Part shown: piece by piece, positions 48,359 to 53,258 of the stretch
How positions within the stretch are numbered: the first letter of the stretch is position 1
Layout: the number at the start of each line of letters is the position of its first letter
From: Promicromonospora soli
GTDB lineage: Bacteria; Actinomycetota; Actinomycetes; Actinomycetales; Cellulomonadaceae
Direction of reading: 5' to 3'
Assembly: GCF_014653785.1 (NCBI RefSeq)
Contig: NZ_BNAS01000003.1
Location: 138,117 to 202,116 of the forward strand
DNA: 64,000 nucleotides
Notes under the pieces: model-generated
Told to the model about the DNA's origin: nothing
Databases searched by the model: none
Seen by the model: only the letters and a program-made list of their open reading frames with translations
Program-made: the position numbers and the translations under genes

Positions 48359-48422
48359 CGTTGAGTGCTGGGCATCCGTCAGGTTGATGGCCTTCGCGCC
48401 GGCGGATGCCCGGCACTCAACG
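48359..48422. repeat. 20-bp long-stem inverted repeat between response regulator and siroheme synthase genes
   Basis: CGTTGAGTGCTGGGCATCCG (48359-48378) pairs with 48403-48422 with one G-T wobble and a 24-nt loop. The right arm covers the last codons and stop of the convergent siroheme synthase gene. Acts as terminator for one or both. Confidence 0.78.
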
Positions 48423-49697
48423 AGCTTGTTCCGCCCAGGCGGGCGAGAGGCGTACGACGTTCCCGACCACGATCACCGCGGGCGGTCGGACGCCGACGGC
48501 GGCGGCGCGCTCGGCGATGTTCCCGAGCGTGCCGACCGTGACGCGCTGCCGGGCGCCGTAGCCGTCCTCGACCACGGCGGCCGGCGTGTCGGCGGGCCGG
48601 TCCGCGGTCACGAGCGCTTCGGCCGTGTCGGCCAGGTGGGTGACGCCCATGAGCAGGACGAGCGTGTGGTCGGCGCCGCCCGGCACCTCGGCGGCTCCGT
48701 CGTGCCCGGTCAGGACGCTGAAGCCGCGCGCGACGCCGCGGTGCGTGACGGGGATGCCGGCCGCCGCGGGGACGGATACGGCGCTGGTCACGCCCGGCAC
48801 CACCTCGACCTCGATGCCGGCTGCGCGGCACGCGGCGAGCTCCTCGCCGCCGCGTCCGAGCACGTACGGGTCACCGCCCTTGAGGCGCACGACGTCGCGC
48901 CCGGCCAGGGCGTGCTGGATCAGCAGCGCGTTGATCTCGTGCTGCGGCACCGGATGGTTGCCGCTGGTCTTGCCGACGTCGATGACCTCGACGTCGGACG
49001 AGAGCTCGTGCAGCAGTGCGCGCGGGCCGAGCCGGTCGATGACCACGACGTCGGCCTGGGCGAGCACCGTCCGGCCGCGCGCAGTAATGAGGCCGGTGTC
49101 GCCGGGCCCGCCGCCGACGAGCCAGACGCGGCCATTGGGTGTCTCGACGGGTTCGGTCACCGACCTGGGCCGGCGGCGGCGCAGCGGCAGCGCGCCGGAC
49201 TGGAGCGCGGCCGCGACGGCGTCCCGGATCGCCCGTGACCGGCGCGGGTCCCGGCCGGCGGTCACCGAGACGGTCACCTCGGCGTCGTCGGTCAGGGTGG
49301 TGCGGGCCACCGCCGGCACCCATGCGCTGCCTACTGACGCGTCACCCGCGGTGACACAGAAGACCCGGGCGCGCTCGGCGTCGTCGGACACCTGGCGGTC
49401 GATCTCGGTTGAACCCGTTGCCGTGTGCACAAGCCATGCCCCGTCGAGGTCACCCGACCGGTAGTCCCGCCGGACCCATTCCACCTCGGCCGGACCAGGG
49501 CCGTCCGTGGGCTCGAGGGTCGCGGAGGCGACGGGAATCCCGGACTCGGCGAGCACCGTGTGCGGCGCGACGAGGCGGACGCGCGCCCCCGCTTCGACGA
49601 GCGAGCGGACGCGGCGCACGGCAACGGGTCCGCCGCCGACCACGACGACGAGCCGGCCGGCGACCTTCAGCCCGAGCGGATAGATGTCGTGAGTCAC
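48417..49697 (-). CDS. cysG: Siroheme synthase: precorrin-2 dehydrogenase fused to uroporphyrinogen-III C-methyltransferase
   Basis: A 426-residue bifunctional protein. Residues 1-165 are the precorrin-2 dehydrogenase part (LKVAGRLVVVVGGGPVAVRRVRSLVEAGARVRLVAP); 188-426 is the SUMT methyltransferase (VWLVGGGPGDTGLITARGRTVLAQADVVVIDRL, VRLKGGDPYVLGRGGEEL, VVPGVTSAVSVPAAAGIPVTHRG, LMGVTHL). It makes sirohydrochlorin, and perhaps inserts iron, providing the siroheme for the sulfite reductase of the same operon. It starts at GTG 49697. A 72-bp hairpin repeat lies between it and the APS reductase gene. Confidence 0.92.
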   Translation of the reverse strand: MTHDIYPLGLKVAGRLVVVVGGGPVAVRRVRSLVEAGARVRLVAPHTVLAESGIPVASATLEPTDGPGPAEVEWVRRDYRSGDLDGAWLVHTATGSTEIDRQVSDDAERARVFCVTAGDASVGSAWVPAVARTTLTDDAEVTVSVTAGRDPRRSRAIRDAVAAALQSGALPLRRRRPRSVTEPVETPNGRVWLVGGGPGDTGLITARGRTVLAQADVVVIDRLGPRALLHELSSDVEVIDVGKTSGNHPVPQHEINALLIQHALAGRDVVRLKGGDPYVLGRGGEELAACRAAGIEVEVVPGVTSAVSVPAAAGIPVTHRGVARGFSVLTGHDGAAEVPGGADHTLVLLMGVTHLADTAEALVTADRPADTPAAVVEDGYGARQRVTVGTLGNIAERAAAVGVRPPAVIVVGNVVRLSPAWAEQAR

Positions 49698-49847: not shown

Positions 49848-50723
49848 TCAGACATGGAGACCGCACTCGTCCTTGTCGAGGCCGGCCCACCGGCCGGAGC
49901 GCGCGTCCTCGCCCGGCAGCGGCCGAGCGGTGCACGGCTCGCAACCGACCGACGGGTAACCGTCGGCGAGCAGCGGGTTCACCACGAGGCCATGGCGGCC
50001 GGCGTAGTCCGCGACCTGCTCCTCGGTCCAGGCGGCGATCGGGTTGATCTTCACCACGCCGTTGCGCTCGTCCCAGGACACCAGCGGAGCGTTGGCGCGG
50101 GCCGCGGTCTCCTCGCGACGTACGCCGGTGGCCCACGCCTCGTAGCTCTGCAGGGCCTTCTTCATCGGGGCCACCTTGCGCATGGCGCAGCAGGCCTCGG
50201 GGTCGCGGTCGTGCAGGCGGGGCCCGTACTTGGCGTCCTGCTCGGCCACGGTGAGCTCGGGGCGCACGTCCACGACGTTCACGTCCAGCTCGATCTCGAC
50301 GGCGCCGCGCGTGCCGAGGGTCTCGGCGAAGTGGTAGCCGGTGTCGCCGAACAGCACGTCCACGAACGGGAACTGCTCGGCCACGAGGTGCGACAGCACG
50401 GTGTCCTGCATCGAGGAGGCCACGGCCATGTACGGCCCGAACTCGCGCACCGCCCACGCGATGACGGCCTGGGCGTCCGCCTCGGGGCTCTCGGACGAAG
50501 CGTTCAGCTGCGCCTGCCCGCGCTCCACCACAGCCCGGAGCTCCTCGGGCGTCCGACGACGGCGCTTGGCCCGGGCGGCCGGGCGCATGGCACGGATGCT
50601 CTCGCGGGCGGCGGCCCGGGCGCGCACGCGGGCGAGCCGCGGGTTCACGGCGCCGCCGTTCAGGCTGGAGCCGTGCCCCGAGAGCGAGAGAGAGGACGTC
50701 GGTGCAATCTCCACAGCGGTCAT
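49848..50723 (-). CDS. cysH: Adenylyl-sulfate (APS) reductase, CysH family
   Basis: A 291-residue assimilatory reductase giving sulfite from adenylyl sulfate. The PP-loop-like start is MAVASSMQDTVLSHL. Cys178-Cys179 and the C261-E-P-C264 pair form the CC...CxxC set of the 4Fe-4S APS-reducing type, and ECGLHV near the end carries the catalytic cysteine, Cys287. The N-terminal 58 residues are a basic, non-conserved extension. Its ATG overlaps the stop of the sulfite reductase gene. The presence of CC...CxxC argues that no PAPS step is needed. Confidence 0.93.
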   Translation of the reverse strand: MTAVEIAPTSSLSLSGHGSSLNGGAVNPRLARVRARAAARESIRAMRPAARAKRRRRTPEELRAVVERGQAQLNASSESPEADAQAVIAWAVREFGPYMAVASSMQDTVLSHLVAEQFPFVDVLFGDTGYHFAETLGTRGAVEIELDVNVVDVRPELTVAEQDAKYGPRLHDRDPEACCAMRKVAPMKKALQSYEAWATGVRREETAARANAPLVSWDERNGVVKINPIAAWTEEQVADYAGRHGLVVNPLLADGYPSVGCEPCTARPLPGEDARSGRWAGLDKDECGLHV

Positions 50724-52498
50724 CGCAAGGCCTCCTCATCGGCGCGGTGCGCCCACTGCGCGAATGTCTCTTCACCGTCGTGGTCCGCGTCGAACCTGCG
50801 CACCACCCGCTCCACGTAGTCGCCGATCCCGTCGGCGGTCACCTTGAGCCCGCGCACCGTGCGCCCGAGCCCGGCGTCGTCCCGGTCCAGCGACGTGAGG
50901 CCGCCGCCGAGGTGGACCTGGAAGCCGGGGACCTGGTTGCCGTCGTCGTCCATCACGAGCTGGCCCTTGAGCCCGATGTCGGCGGTCTGGATGCGCGCGC
51001 ACGAGTTGGGGCACCCGTTGACGTGGAGGCTGAGGGGCTTGAGGTTCTTCAGGTCCCCGAGCCGCTCCTCGAGCTGCGTGATCGCCGCGGCCGACGTCGC
51101 CTTGGTCTCGACGATCGCGAGCTTGCAGTACTCGATGCCGGTGCAGGCGATCGTGTTCCGGCGGAAGATGCTCGGCCGGGCCTGCAGGCCGAGCTCGGCG
51201 AGGCCGGCGACCAGCGGCTCGACCTCGTCCTTGACGACGTCCAGCACCAGCAGCTTCTGCTGCGGCGTCAGGCGGACGCGGCGGCTGCCGTGCGCCTCGG
51301 CGAGGTCCGCGAGCTTGGCCAGGGTCTCGCCCGAGACGCGGCCGACGGTGGGTGCGGCGCCGATGTAGAACCGGCCGTCGTGCTGCTCGTGGATGCCCAC
51401 GTGGTCGCCGCGCTCGTCGAGCCCCAGCGAGGCGGGCGACGGCGGCTCGATGCCGTCGGGCAGCTTGTAGCCCAGGTACTCGTCCTCCAGGACCTGGCGG
51501 AACTTCTCGACGCCCCAGTCGGCGAGCAGGAACTTCAGGCGGGCCTTGTTGCGCAGGCGGCGGTAGCCGTAGTCGCGGAAGATGCGGACGACGCCGTGCC
51601 AGACCTCGGGCGCCTCCTCCTCCGTGACGAACACGTCCAGCCGTTCCGCGAGGCGCGGCGCGGTGGACAGCGCGCCGCCCACCCACACGTCGTAGCCGAT
51701 CCCCAGCTCCGGGTGGTCGACGGCGACGAACGAGATGTCGTTGATCTGGTGCACCACGTCCAGGCTCGGGTGGCCCGTGATCGCCGACTTGAACTTGCGC
51801 GGCAGGTTCGCCAGCGCCGGGTCGCCGATGAAGCGCTCCTGGATCTGCTCGATCACCGGCGTCGGGTCGATGAGCTCGTCCTTCGCGACGCCGGCCACCG
51901 GGCTGCCGAGGATGACGCGCGGCACGTCGCCGCAGGCCTCCGTGGTGCTCAGCCCCACCGCTTCGAGGCGGCGCCAGATCTCCGGCATCGCCTCGACCTC
52001 GATCCAGTGCAGCTGGAGGTTCTGCCGGTCGGTGATGTCCGCGGAGCCGCGGCCGAAGTCGGTGCTGATGCCCGCGATGGTGCGCAGCTGCTCGGTGCTC
52101 AGCGCCCCGCCGTCGATCCGGACGCGCAGCATGAAGTACTCGTCCTCGAGCTCGTGCGGCTCGAGCGTTGCGGTCTTGCCGCCGTCGATCCCCGGCTTGC
52201 GCTGCGTGTACAGGCCCCACCAGCGGAACCGGCCGTGCAGGTCGTCACCGGGGATGGAGTCGAAGCCCTTCTTGGCGTAGACCTGCTCGATGCGCTCGCG
52301 CACCAGCAGCGGGTCCGACTCCTGCTTGAACTCCTCGTTGTGGTTCAGCGGCGCCTTGCCGTCGACCTTCCACTGGCCGTTCGGGCGTGCTGGCCGCTTC
52401 GACGCCGTGGGTGTACGGCGGGCGGGAGCTGTGCCGGTCTTGCCGCCGGGCTGTGTGGCGACTTGGGTCTCGGGCGGGGTGGGGGCCGTGTTCACCAT
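50720..52498 (-). CDS. sir: Siroheme-dependent sulfite reductase (ferredoxin type)
   Basis: A 592-residue nitrite/sulfite reductase-family protein, of the length and sequence of actinobacterial SirA. It has two ferredoxin-like half domains (DGGALSTEQLRTIAGISTDFGRGSADITDRQNLQLHWIEVE) and the siroheme/4Fe-4S ligands CTGIEYC and NGCPNSC. It reduces sulfite to sulfide with six electrons from ferredoxin. The first 45 residues are a low-complexity extension. ATG at 52498 is used; translation might start a little downstream. It is the first structural gene of the operon and is preceded by a polycysteine leader ORF. Confidence 0.92.
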   Translation of the reverse strand: MVNTAPTPPETQVATQPGGKTGTAPARRTPTASKRPARPNGQWKVDGKAPLNHNEEFKQESDPLLVRERIEQVYAKKGFDSIPGDDLHGRFRWWGLYTQRKPGIDGGKTATLEPHELEDEYFMLRVRIDGGALSTEQLRTIAGISTDFGRGSADITDRQNLQLHWIEVEAMPEIWRRLEAVGLSTTEACGDVPRVILGSPVAGVAKDELIDPTPVIEQIQERFIGDPALANLPRKFKSAITGHPSLDVVHQINDISFVAVDHPELGIGYDVWVGGALSTAPRLAERLDVFVTEEEAPEVWHGVVRIFRDYGYRRLRNKARLKFLLADWGVEKFRQVLEDEYLGYKLPDGIEPPSPASLGLDERGDHVGIHEQHDGRFYIGAAPTVGRVSGETLAKLADLAEAHGSRRVRLTPQQKLLVLDVVKDEVEPLVAGLAELGLQARPSIFRRNTIACTGIEYCKLAIVETKATSAAAITQLEERLGDLKNLKPLSLHVNGCPNSCARIQTADIGLKGQLVMDDDGNQVPGFQVHLGGGLTSLDRDDAGLGRTVRGLKVTADGIGDYVERVVRRFDADHDGEETFAQWAHRADEEALR

Positions 52499-52657
52499 GG
52501 GGCAGGGGTCCTGTTCGTGCGGGGCGCGCGGGCGTGGAGCTGAAGCTGGGGGTGGTGCGCGTCGTACGGGCACAGGAGGCCGGTTCCCGGGTGTGACCAG
52601 GGACTCAGCGCTGCGGGCCGGCGGCGCGCGCTGACCTTGCTGGGCGAGGGGCGCGTG

Positions 52658-52762
52658 TCAGATCTGACAGCTGCGACAGCCGTCGCAGGCACAGGTCGGC
52701 ATGGCACACATTCGCATCTCGTGACGAGTGGTCACGAGGAGGATGCGCGCTGCCTTGGTCAT
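52658..52762 (-). CDS. Polycysteine leader peptide of the sulfate-assimilation operon
   Basis: A 34-codon ORF, 160 bp upstream of the sulfite reductase start and on the same strand. It has five cysteines, at 19, 24, 26, 29 and 32, four of them in the last eleven residues (ending PTCACDGCRSCQI). The ATG at 52762 is preceded by TAACGT (52775-52770) exactly 7 nt upstream, so it is probably translated from the 5' end of a leaderless mRNA. Polycysteine leaderless ORFs before cysteine and sulfur genes are known in mycobacteria as cysteine-responsive attenuators; here slow translation at Cys codons under cysteine shortage would raise expression of sir-cysH-cysG. Function is inference. Confidence 0.8.
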   Translation of the reverse strand: MTKAARILLVTTRHEMRMCAMPTCACDGCRSCQI

Positions 52763-52769
52763 GGCGATG

Positions 52770-52775
52770 ACGTTA
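52770..52775 (-). promoter_or_regulatory. -10 box of the polycysteine leader, leaderless type
   Basis: TAACGT on the minus strand, 7 nt before the leader ATG at 52762. No strong -35; TTCCGT (52798-52793) is at 17-bp spacing. Confidence 0.65.
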
Positions 52776-52888
52776 ACCGCAGCACCTGGCGCACGGAAGG
52801 CCCCGTCCACATAGTGGATGTCTATCGACAACATCGATGTTGCCTATGTATTTCCCTACCAATTCAGTAGGGAATGGGCGAGCCCGGA

Positions 52889-52894
52889 TAGGCT
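52889..52894 (+). promoter_or_regulatory. -10 box of the small membrane protein gene, leaderless type
   Basis: TAGGCT ends 7 nt before the ATG at 52902. Confidence 0.65.
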
Positions 52895-52901
52895 GCGAGG
52901 C

Positions 52902-53258
52902 ATGGAGTTCCTCTACAACGTCTTCGTGTTCCTGCACTTCGCGAGCTGGGCGCTCGTGTTCGGCGGCTCGATCGCGTCGATGCGCACCAAGGCTCTCTAC
53001 AAGGGCGTCTCGCACGGCGCCATGGGAGCCGTCGTCGCGGGCGTGATCATGGTGGGCATCGCGGAGATGGGCGGCCTCTGGGAGGGCGACGCCGGTCCTG
53101 CGATGGCGAAGATCGGCGTCAAGCTCGTCGTCGCGCTCGCCGTCGCCGTGCTGGCCGTGCTCGCCGTCCGCAAGGGCGAGGACGTCTCCCCGGGCCTCAA
53201 GGGCTCCGTGCTGGGCCTCACCCTGGTGAACATCCTGGTCGCGGTGTTCTGGAACTGA
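52902..53258 (+). CDS. Small integral membrane protein of unknown function
   Basis: A 118-residue protein with about four membrane segments: LYNVFVFLHFASWALVFGGSIAS, GAMGAVVAGVIMVGIAEMGGLW, KLVVALAVAVLAVLAV and GSVLGLTLVNILVAVFW. The FLHFASWALVFGGS start recalls small actinobacterial membrane proteins without assigned roles. The frame is open upstream, but a leaderless-type -10 fixes the ATG at 52902. It is divergent from the sulfur operon; the 126 bp between hold both promoters. Confidence 0.75.
   Translation: MEFLYNVFVFLHFASWALVFGGSIASMRTKALYKGVSHGAMGAVVAGVIMVGIAEMGGLWEGDAGPAMAKIGVKLVVALAVAVLAVLAVRKGEDVSPGLKGSVLGLTLVNILVAVFWN

Follow-up and report, generated by a model that had tools for sequence, protein, structure and literature searches.

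Leaderless polycysteine short open reading frames (ORFs), with Cys codons near the stop and a position upstream of cysteine-metabolism operons, were reportedly described in mycobacteria by Canestrari et al. in 2020. In this work, we analyzed a 64,000-nucleotide (nt) stretch of the Promicromonospora soli genome (contig NZ_BNAS01000003.1, positions 138,117 to 202,116; hereafter, the window), in which a short Cys-rich ORF on the minus strand precedes genes encoding a sulfite reductase, an APS reductase, and a siroheme synthase-like protein. A switch of the same kind is reported for M. smegmatis in PMC9031893, PMC9094748, and PMC13236596; the first of these texts describes the study of Canestrari et al. 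as dealing with leaderless ORFs in which contiguous Cys codons bring about attenuation, and the last one terms it translation attenuation. PMC4633059 deals with Cys-rich upstream ORFs, one of which is robustly occupied by ribosomes in M. smegmatis. Moreover, Seliverstov et al. (2005; PMC1262725) predicted terminator-less cys leaders in Mycobacterium, Propionibacterium acnes, and upstream of Bifidobacterium longum cbs. In the literature searched, with partial coverage of subscription journals, no report of such leaders in the family of Promicromonospora (Cellulomonadaceae in GTDB usage) was noticed.

Based on the comparison of related genomes, it is probable that the ORF analyzed here acts in cis as a leader-peptide attenuator responding to cysteine, as reported for mycobacteria, and the controlled step is most likely translation initiation. 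What the comparison establishes, at the level of sequence, is the ORF itself, its promoter spacing, its Cys cluster, a predicted hairpin inside the ORF (P_A), a short motif just behind its stop codon (element S), and, in sister genera, a predicted stem (H1) beside the Shine-Dalgarno (SD) sequence of the reductase gene.

The leader ORF and its conservation

As stated in the first-pass annotation, which was prepared from the letters of the window, the 34-codon ORF contains five Cys codons, four of them among its last eleven, and TAACGT lies 7 nt (CATCGCC) before its ATG at 52762. The encoded peptide of 34 amino acids (aa) is MTKAARILLVTTRHEMRMCAMPTCACDGCRSCQI, and its Cys codons are clustered near the stop codon in the arrangement CxCxxCxxC, none of them being contiguous. 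The distance of about 160 bp to the sulfite reductase/APS reductase/siroheme operon given in that annotation agrees with the measured leader-to-reductase spacer of 159 nt. The ORF listing also contains a longer in-frame version (start at 52834, 58 aa); in 12 other Promicromonospora genomes, ATG 52762 is retained, with TANNNT 7 nt upstream, and in-frame indels are found downstream of this ATG. The spacing of 6-8 nt between the -10 element and the start, kept in relatives, would imply leaderless translation.

To be counted in the chance analysis, an ORF had to span 8-75 aa, start with ATG or GTG, carry four or more Cys among its final 11 codons, and be preceded by TANNNT at a distance of 6-8 nt. 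The leader is the sole such ORF on both strands of the 64-kb window, and none was found in dinucleotide shuffles of a 402-nt region (0/3000) or of the whole window (0/30). Without the promoter condition, one further ORF appears in the window, and five of the 3000 region shuffles contain one. This other Cys-rich ORF (41132, plus strand, MRCWRRSCCCCRRA) lies antisense within a long ORF and is devoid of an adjacent -10 element; it is probably a chance occurrence.

For the analysis of conservation, 150 genomes of the family were searched with the reductase as a query, which gave matches in 133 of them (E-value up to 0.001; some matches weak and unrelated). Finally, 117 strong reductase loci were used and 900 nt upstream of each were read. 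Names of sister genera, i.e., Cellulosimicrobium (g7), Isoptericola (g21), Oerskovia (g23), Sanguibacter (g19), Myceligenerans (g14), Antribacter (g3), Sediminihabitans (g24), Luteimicrobium (g10), and Cellulomonas (g8), are presumptive. A loose criterion (a short ORF with at least three Cys in its last 14 residues) indicated 98 of the 117 loci, a few of which are clearly not leaders. With a stricter selection, a Cys-rich ORF was found at 96 loci, and at 76 of these TANNNT is located 6-8 nt before the start. These 76 strict leaders (at least three Cys within the last 14 aa and the adjacent promoter) span 15 genera, and the ORF is present in all 13 Promicromonospora genomes, that of the window included. 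That the ORF should recur in relatives carrying the same gene was a check named beforehand in the first-pass annotation, and these counts (13/13 and 76/117) speak for the ORF.

The ACDxCRSC motif is invariant in the 13 Promicromonospora leaders, the first Cys of CxCxxCxxC occurs in nine, and three contain CC. Since contiguous Cys are found at the corresponding position in most leaders of sister genera (endings SCCR, CCCR, CCCC, or TCRCC), the spaced arrangement is a variant of the genus, and the earlier suggestion that it represents a distinct design has to be abandoned. Furthermore, indels among Promicromonospora are multiples of three inside the ORF and not so in the spacer (as judged by eye), which favours a translated ORF. 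At five more loci (four of Myceligenerans and one of Antribacter), a promoter-adjacent ORF has internal Cys, because it extends further downstream.

Leaders were also found at other cysteine genes of the genus. In the case of cbs, a GTG ORF with three contiguous Cys and TACAGT 6-7 nt upstream is present at 11 of 11 loci (11 of the 13 genomes) and looks leaderless. A Cys-rich ORF preceded by an SD sequence and ending in RGCL before its stop is located about 210 nt ahead of cysK; it was flagged by script in nine genomes, and by eye the frame is visible in all 13, two of them with just two Cys. Thus, at least three cysteine genes of Promicromonospora (those of sulfite reductase, Cbs, and CysK) appear to be under leader control. 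The profile of the leader, run on the genome of the window, recovered its sirA copy only, and the next match (E = 0.028) contains an internal stop. Two side observations concern the same regions: several of the cbs upstream sequences (L251, L252-L261) show by eye GC-rich complementary arms just before the SD sequence, and the cysK leader (L238-L250) starts with TTG in 12 of 13 genomes and with ATG in that of the window.

Conserved RNA elements in the ORF and the spacer

The hairpin P_A was tested in 45 distinct leader starts from seven of the 15 genera, chosen because their leaders align and including that of the window. Its 8 pairs are formed in 96.9% of cells, and six of them change on both sides yet still pair. 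No shuffle out of 500 paired in as many cells, scored as high on covariation, or contained as many doubly changed cells; one shuffle had as many doubly changed pairs, and 75 had as many pair types. Slid controls were paired in 16.9-51.4%, and RNAalifold, applied unsupervised, recovered 7 of the 8 pairs. The hairpin accounts for the conserved LVTxRH residues of the peptide. It is our guess that P_A is a pause hairpin holding ribosome and polymerase together.

Among Promicromonospora, conservation extends over the greater part of the spacer. Immediately behind the leader stop codon stands element S: CGCGCC starts 0-2 nt past the stop in 61 of the 76 leaders (61 of 63 in nine genera), against a background of 1.9% of far-upstream 14-nt windows and 6.3% within spacers. 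The remark in the first-pass annotation that the spacer can fold proved an understatement as far as its conservation in the genus and its specific elements are concerned; the folding taken alone, as described below, does not reveal the switch.

The stem H1, in which GGCGCGCG pairs with CGCGCGUC immediately before the SD sequence, was assessed in an alignment (A2) of 32 of the 45 stretches, representing six genera without that of the window; its strands are 94 nt apart in Promicromonospora versus roughly 40-55 nt in A2. In this alignment, H1 is paired in 99.6% of cells, was predicted by RNAalifold unsupervised, and has two doubly changed pairs. Another helix, H2, is 92.5% paired, and it shares bases with a pairing of the candidate anti-SD (columns 18-23) to the SD-side GAGGAC, which holds in 85.5% of cells. 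Paired cells and covariation score beat 500 of 500 shuffles for both the H1+H2 and the anti-SD:SD structures; for the latter (H1 included), doubly changed pairs were reached in 208 and pair types in 401 of the 500 shuffles. In a strand-swap analysis of H1 with 18 sequences, own strands gave a mean of -20.3 kcal/mol versus -18.5 kcal/mol for permuted ones, and 57 of 20,000 permutations were as good (the windows of this analysis were picked by eye). In the single-sequence fold of the window RNA, the SD sequence is paired by TCCTGT, the alternative anti-SD candidate.

Element S is complementary to the 5' strand of H1, so the S:H1-5' pairing and H1 are mutually exclusive. Among 56 sequences folded as ribosome-free RNA, the probability of S:H1-5' was 0.50 for the window and on average 0.40 over 12 sequences of its genus; the means were 0.72 in Isoptericola, 0.71 in Oerskovia, and 0.47 in Sediminihabitans. 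In the Myceligenerans and Antribacter loci with the longer ORF (L016, L018-L021), inspection by eye showed that the ORF crosses the H1 5' strand and that element S is missing; this layout is possibly an alternative wiring of the same switch.

No intrinsic terminator-like site, such as the hairpin with a following U run of a classical trp-type attenuator, was found in 52400-53000. The sole Rfam match up to E 10 in 52300-53000 was a miRNA model on the other strand (15.9 bits versus a cut-off of 70), and none of 11 loci compared with Rfam reached a gathering score. The coordinates of all these elements, together with those of the genes, are collected in Table 1.

Table 1. Location of the leader, the RNA elements, and the downstream genes (positions in the window)
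Feature	Position	Strand	Basis or remark
Siroheme synthase-like protein, uroporphyrinogen-III C-methyltransferase domain	48417-49697	minus	TIGR01469 over cut-off
APS/PAPS reductase (cysH)	49848-50723	minus	PRK02090 over cut-off; start overlaps sulfite reductase stop
Assimilatory sulfite/nitrite reductase family protein (sirA-like), 592 aa	50720-52498	minus	NCBIfam scan
SD sequence AGGA of the sulfite reductase gene	52512-52509	minus	sequence
H1 3' strand, CGCGCGCC	52530-52523	minus	helix backed in sister genera
Alternative candidate anti-SD, TCCTGT	52577-52572	minus	complementary to ACAGGA at the SD; putative
Candidate anti-SD, GAGTCCCTGG	52606-52597	minus	sequence and conservation; putative pairing
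H1 5' strand, GCGCGCG	52631-52625	minus	complements both S and the H1 3' strand
Element S, CGCGCC	52655-52650	minus	directly after the leader stop codon
Leader ORF, 34 codons, ending CACDGCRSCQI and stop	52762-52658	minus	ATG 52762, TGA 52660-52658
Cys codons 24, 26, 29, and 32, proposed stall region	52667-52693	minus	sequence and conservation
Hairpin P_A	52738-52718	minus	CTCGTGAC (52738-52731) pairs with GTCACGAG (52725-52718)
-10 element TAACGT	52775-52770	minus	putative leaderless promoter
Operator-like inverted repeat TCCAC-TAT-GTGGA	52818-52806	minus	some 50 nt ahead of the leader ATG

Proposed mechanism and competing explanations

In the mechanism that we propose, transcription would begin at or beside the leader ATG and the ribosome would load on a leaderless mRNA. 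When Cys-tRNA is scarce, the ribosome would stall on the clustered Cys codons beside the stop, the conserved spacer would refold, and more sulfite reductase, APS reductase, and siroheme synthase would be produced; with ample cysteine, the ribosome would terminate and the spacer would adopt a low-expression fold. In ribosome-free RNA, element S would pair with the H1 5' strand; a stalled ribosome would cover or abut S, and the stem H1 beside the SD sequence would compete for that strand. The conformer assigned as on is one that we infer. Ribosome-mediated cysteine attenuation, as put forward in the first-pass annotation, is thus supported as to its kind by the leaders of all 13 Promicromonospora, by the 76 of 117 loci, and by the putative cbs and cysK leaders. 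Tentatively, we may even be dealing, in the family of Promicromonospora, with an undescribed class of ribosome-operated RNA switches that combines a leaderless Cys leader, an in-ORF hairpin, a CGCGCC toggle set against an SD-side stem, and an ORF-lengthened variant in Myceligenerans and Antribacter. In such a class, the toggle past the stop would compete with the SD-side stem for one strand, and the lengthened ORF would let the ribosome itself traverse this strand, replacing the toggle.

A number of results weigh against the proposed attenuator or its RNA part. Element S is missing from all 13 leaders of six genera. The double changes of H1 in A2 all come from one genus, Myceligenerans, and H1 is without covariation in Promicromonospora; doubly changed pairs of H1+H2 were reached by 13 of the 500 shuffles and pair types by 122. 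In the strand-swap analysis, own H1 strands were no better than foreign ones in L013, Sanguibacter, and in about half of the tests of L041 and L065. The mean S:H1-5' probability is only 0.25 in Cellulosimicrobium and 0.03 in the single Antribacter sequence. As for the window, the probability of H1 in its ensemble is 0.00 in all three states, and placing a ribosome on the last Cys codon lowers S:H1-5' only from 0.50 to 0.40, a small drop explained by the modelled ribosome edge, which stops just short of S. Nested equilibrium folding of 76 sequences shows no consistent SD opening upon stalling (mean unpaired probability of 0.25 in free RNA, 0.31 with the ribosome on the stop, and 0.29 over the last four Cys codons), and the SD sequence of the window is unpaired with a probability of 0.01-0.06 in every state. 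Moreover, no ORF with at least three late Cys was found at 12 cysD loci (two of which have a longer promoter-adjacent ORF bearing a few Cys) or within 1.5 kb on each side of the MetQ-like gene at 13 loci, and none of 60 loci named SirA outside the family has a promoter-adjacent leader of this sort.

The same elements may also be read with reverse polarity: H1 and the anti-SD:SD pairing would form a joint pseudoknot, being the repressed form, and S, lying beside the stalled ribosome, would open it via the H1 5' strand. This arrangement is possible, though somewhat doubtful. The frequent anti-SD pairing in A2 is consistent with it, as is the modelled stalled state, which leaves S of the window free at the ribosome edge, and the Myceligenerans/Antribacter ORF (as seen by eye) crosses the H1 5' strand, so that a ribosome stalled there would block H1. 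However, the anti-SD columns overlap H2, itself also well paired, the anti-SD helix is unexceptional in the shuffles with respect to changed pairs and pair types, and S:H1-5' is favoured in the ribosome-free RNA of several genera.

Another explanation keeps the leader and replaces the controlled step by premature Rho-dependent termination of transcription, where stalled ribosomes would shield or uncouple the C-rich spacer and thereby alter Rho loading. By eye, the spacer is C-rich near the gene start, the region is without an intrinsic terminator, folding gives no SD opening, and Rho was proposed in 2005 for hairpin-less mycobacterial cys leaders (PMC1262725). The conservation of the spacer and its specific paired elements in sister genera nevertheless exceed the needs of a rut site, and S complements the H1 5' strand; we regard Rho-dependent control as unlikely.

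It is highly improbable that the ORF is untranslated and the region is a structured RNA, such as a ligand riboswitch or a thermosensor-like element, with incidental Cys codons. Such an RNA would be in line with the strong RNA-level conservation, which includes the ORF interior, and, in the absence of an Rfam match, an unknown class would be possible, but the Cys codons persist in ORFs of differing length, spacing, and sequence, the gaps within the ORF among congeners come in multiples of three, and the -10-to-start spacing of 6-8 nt is held at 76 loci. Finally, the view that the product of the ORF is itself a working small peptide, binding metal or serving in redox reactions through CxCxxCxxC, and is first in the operon by happenstance, has hardly any chance of being correct: the invariance of ACDxCRSC in 13 Promicromonospora and the first Cys retained in nine would suit it, but the number and spacing of Cys differ among genera (CCCR, CCCC, SCQCCCR, TCRCC), the LVTxRH residues track the covarying hairpin P_A, and no match to RiPP or metal-binding families was found in Pfam and NCBIfam.

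Neighbouring features and relation to known leaders

The start of the sulfite reductase gene is likely ATG 52498, preceded by AGGA at 52512-52509; the best NCBIfam matches of its product are PRK09566, PRK09567, and PRK13504, each under its cut-off. Upstream of the leader promoter, the operator-like repeat (TCCACTATGTGGA in the window) is kept in Promicromonospora, with TATATGG in place of TATGTGG in four of 13 genomes. It is a probable binding site of an activator, and its position suggests that the activator would work on the same promoter as the attenuator. A degenerate operator-like form was noticed by eye in many other genera near TCC..NATNCGGAC, about -57 to -43 from the leader start. A second inverted repeat, TTCCCTAC...GTAGGGAA (52874-52867 and 52859-52852), is situated between the leader promoter and a divergently oriented ORF for a small protein on the plus strand (starting at 52818 or at a more internal codon and ending at 53258), and by eye its arms co-vary in some congeners.

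Beyond the family, 76 of 80 loci named SirA have sufficient upstream sequence, and a promoter-adjacent Cys-rich leader is present at 14 of them, all in genera of the family of the window; two more family members (Myceligenerans and Antribacter) fail the strict criterion. The 60 out-of-family loci belong mainly to Microbacterium, Agromyces, Arthrobacter, and Pseudarthrobacter, and two of them have a Cys-rich ORF lacking an adjacent promoter. In a sample drawn from the whole class, a reductase match was obtained in 158 of 197 genomes and 51 loci were examined; an ORF with at least three late Cys occurs at eight of these, with an adjacent -10 element at none of the eight. A different leader, of the LVxRRHVD type with one or few Cys, precedes SirA at 36 of the 51 loci, in 20 other families. 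Six RRHVD-type peptides were scanned, three of which pass the cut-off of NF042934 ("putative leader peptide") and none that of NF042936 ("Ms4527A family Cys-rich leader peptide"; best score 44.8 bits versus 45). These peptides and their NCBIfam matches indicate that SirA is often preceded by a leader across the class, some of these leaders being already catalogued. The conserved Arg of the LVxRRHVD-type leaders is encoded by several CGN forms, which may point to selection on the peptide. In the literature searched, strings of the RRHVDL type turned up in a single unrelated paper.

Homology of the window leader to RRHVDL leaders, suggested by the spacing of LVTTRH and LVSRRH, was considered and rejected: a profile of 26 segments scores the window leader at -2.2 bits, more than 5 bits were obtained for one of 96 real leaders and for 21 of 4800 shuffled ones, the shuffles scoring higher, and the RRHVD motif is found at none of the 117 family loci and at none of the 76 loci named SirA (16 of them of the same family). 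In NCBIfam, neither the 34-aa nor the 58-aa form of the window leader has a match at E up to 10, although the HMMER filters drop most matches above about 0.1, and the leader of a Cellulosimicrobium relative matches neither NF042934 nor NF042936 at E up to 10. This suggests that such short genes may escape current NCBIfam leader models.

If the proposed attenuator is correct, cysteine-responsive, ribosome-operated control would extend from mycobacteria to another actinobacterial family, and the leaders at three loci of one genus would possibly place several operons under joint control by ribosomes. Differences among 15 genera would constitute a natural experiment on Cys codon number, spacing, and distance to the switching RNA, and P_A and CGCGCC would be short, precise targets for analyzing the coupling of a stalled ribosome to a start site some 160 nt downstream.

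Like the NF042934 and NF042936 leaders, the window leader is a short Cys-containing leader upstream of the same reductase gene, but it matches neither model. With the cys leaders of Seliverstov et al. (PMC1262725), it shares Cys codon runs before the stop and the lack of a terminator, and a cbs leader occurs in Promicromonospora too; unlike them, it is accompanied by conserved, non-terminator RNA elements found in the family of the window. The LEU element of actinobacterial leuA, treated in the same text, likewise combines a leader ORF with a possible pseudoknot or alternative pairing at the SD sequence, and differs in amino acid, sequence, and layout, the pseudoknot in the family of the window being putative. 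A further leader, that of S. lividans metL (SLIV_29928), ends with GARCMCRRMCAF and is annotated as methionine-dependent in PMC8079986; it could equally be read as a cysteine leader.

The closest resemblance is to the mycobacterial polycysteine ORFs: in both cases, clustered Cys codons lie near the stop, upstream of a sulfur operon and at several loci per genome, and ribosome stalling is proposed to control the downstream genes. The differences are that the ORF described here belongs to another actinobacterial family, that its Cys codons in the window are non-contiguous, and that the Promicromonospora leader has its own in-ORF hairpin and S/H1 elements, its cysteine response being predicted from sequence. 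The window leader would thus add to the known kind a cysteine leader from another family, equipped with conserved RNA parts of its own.
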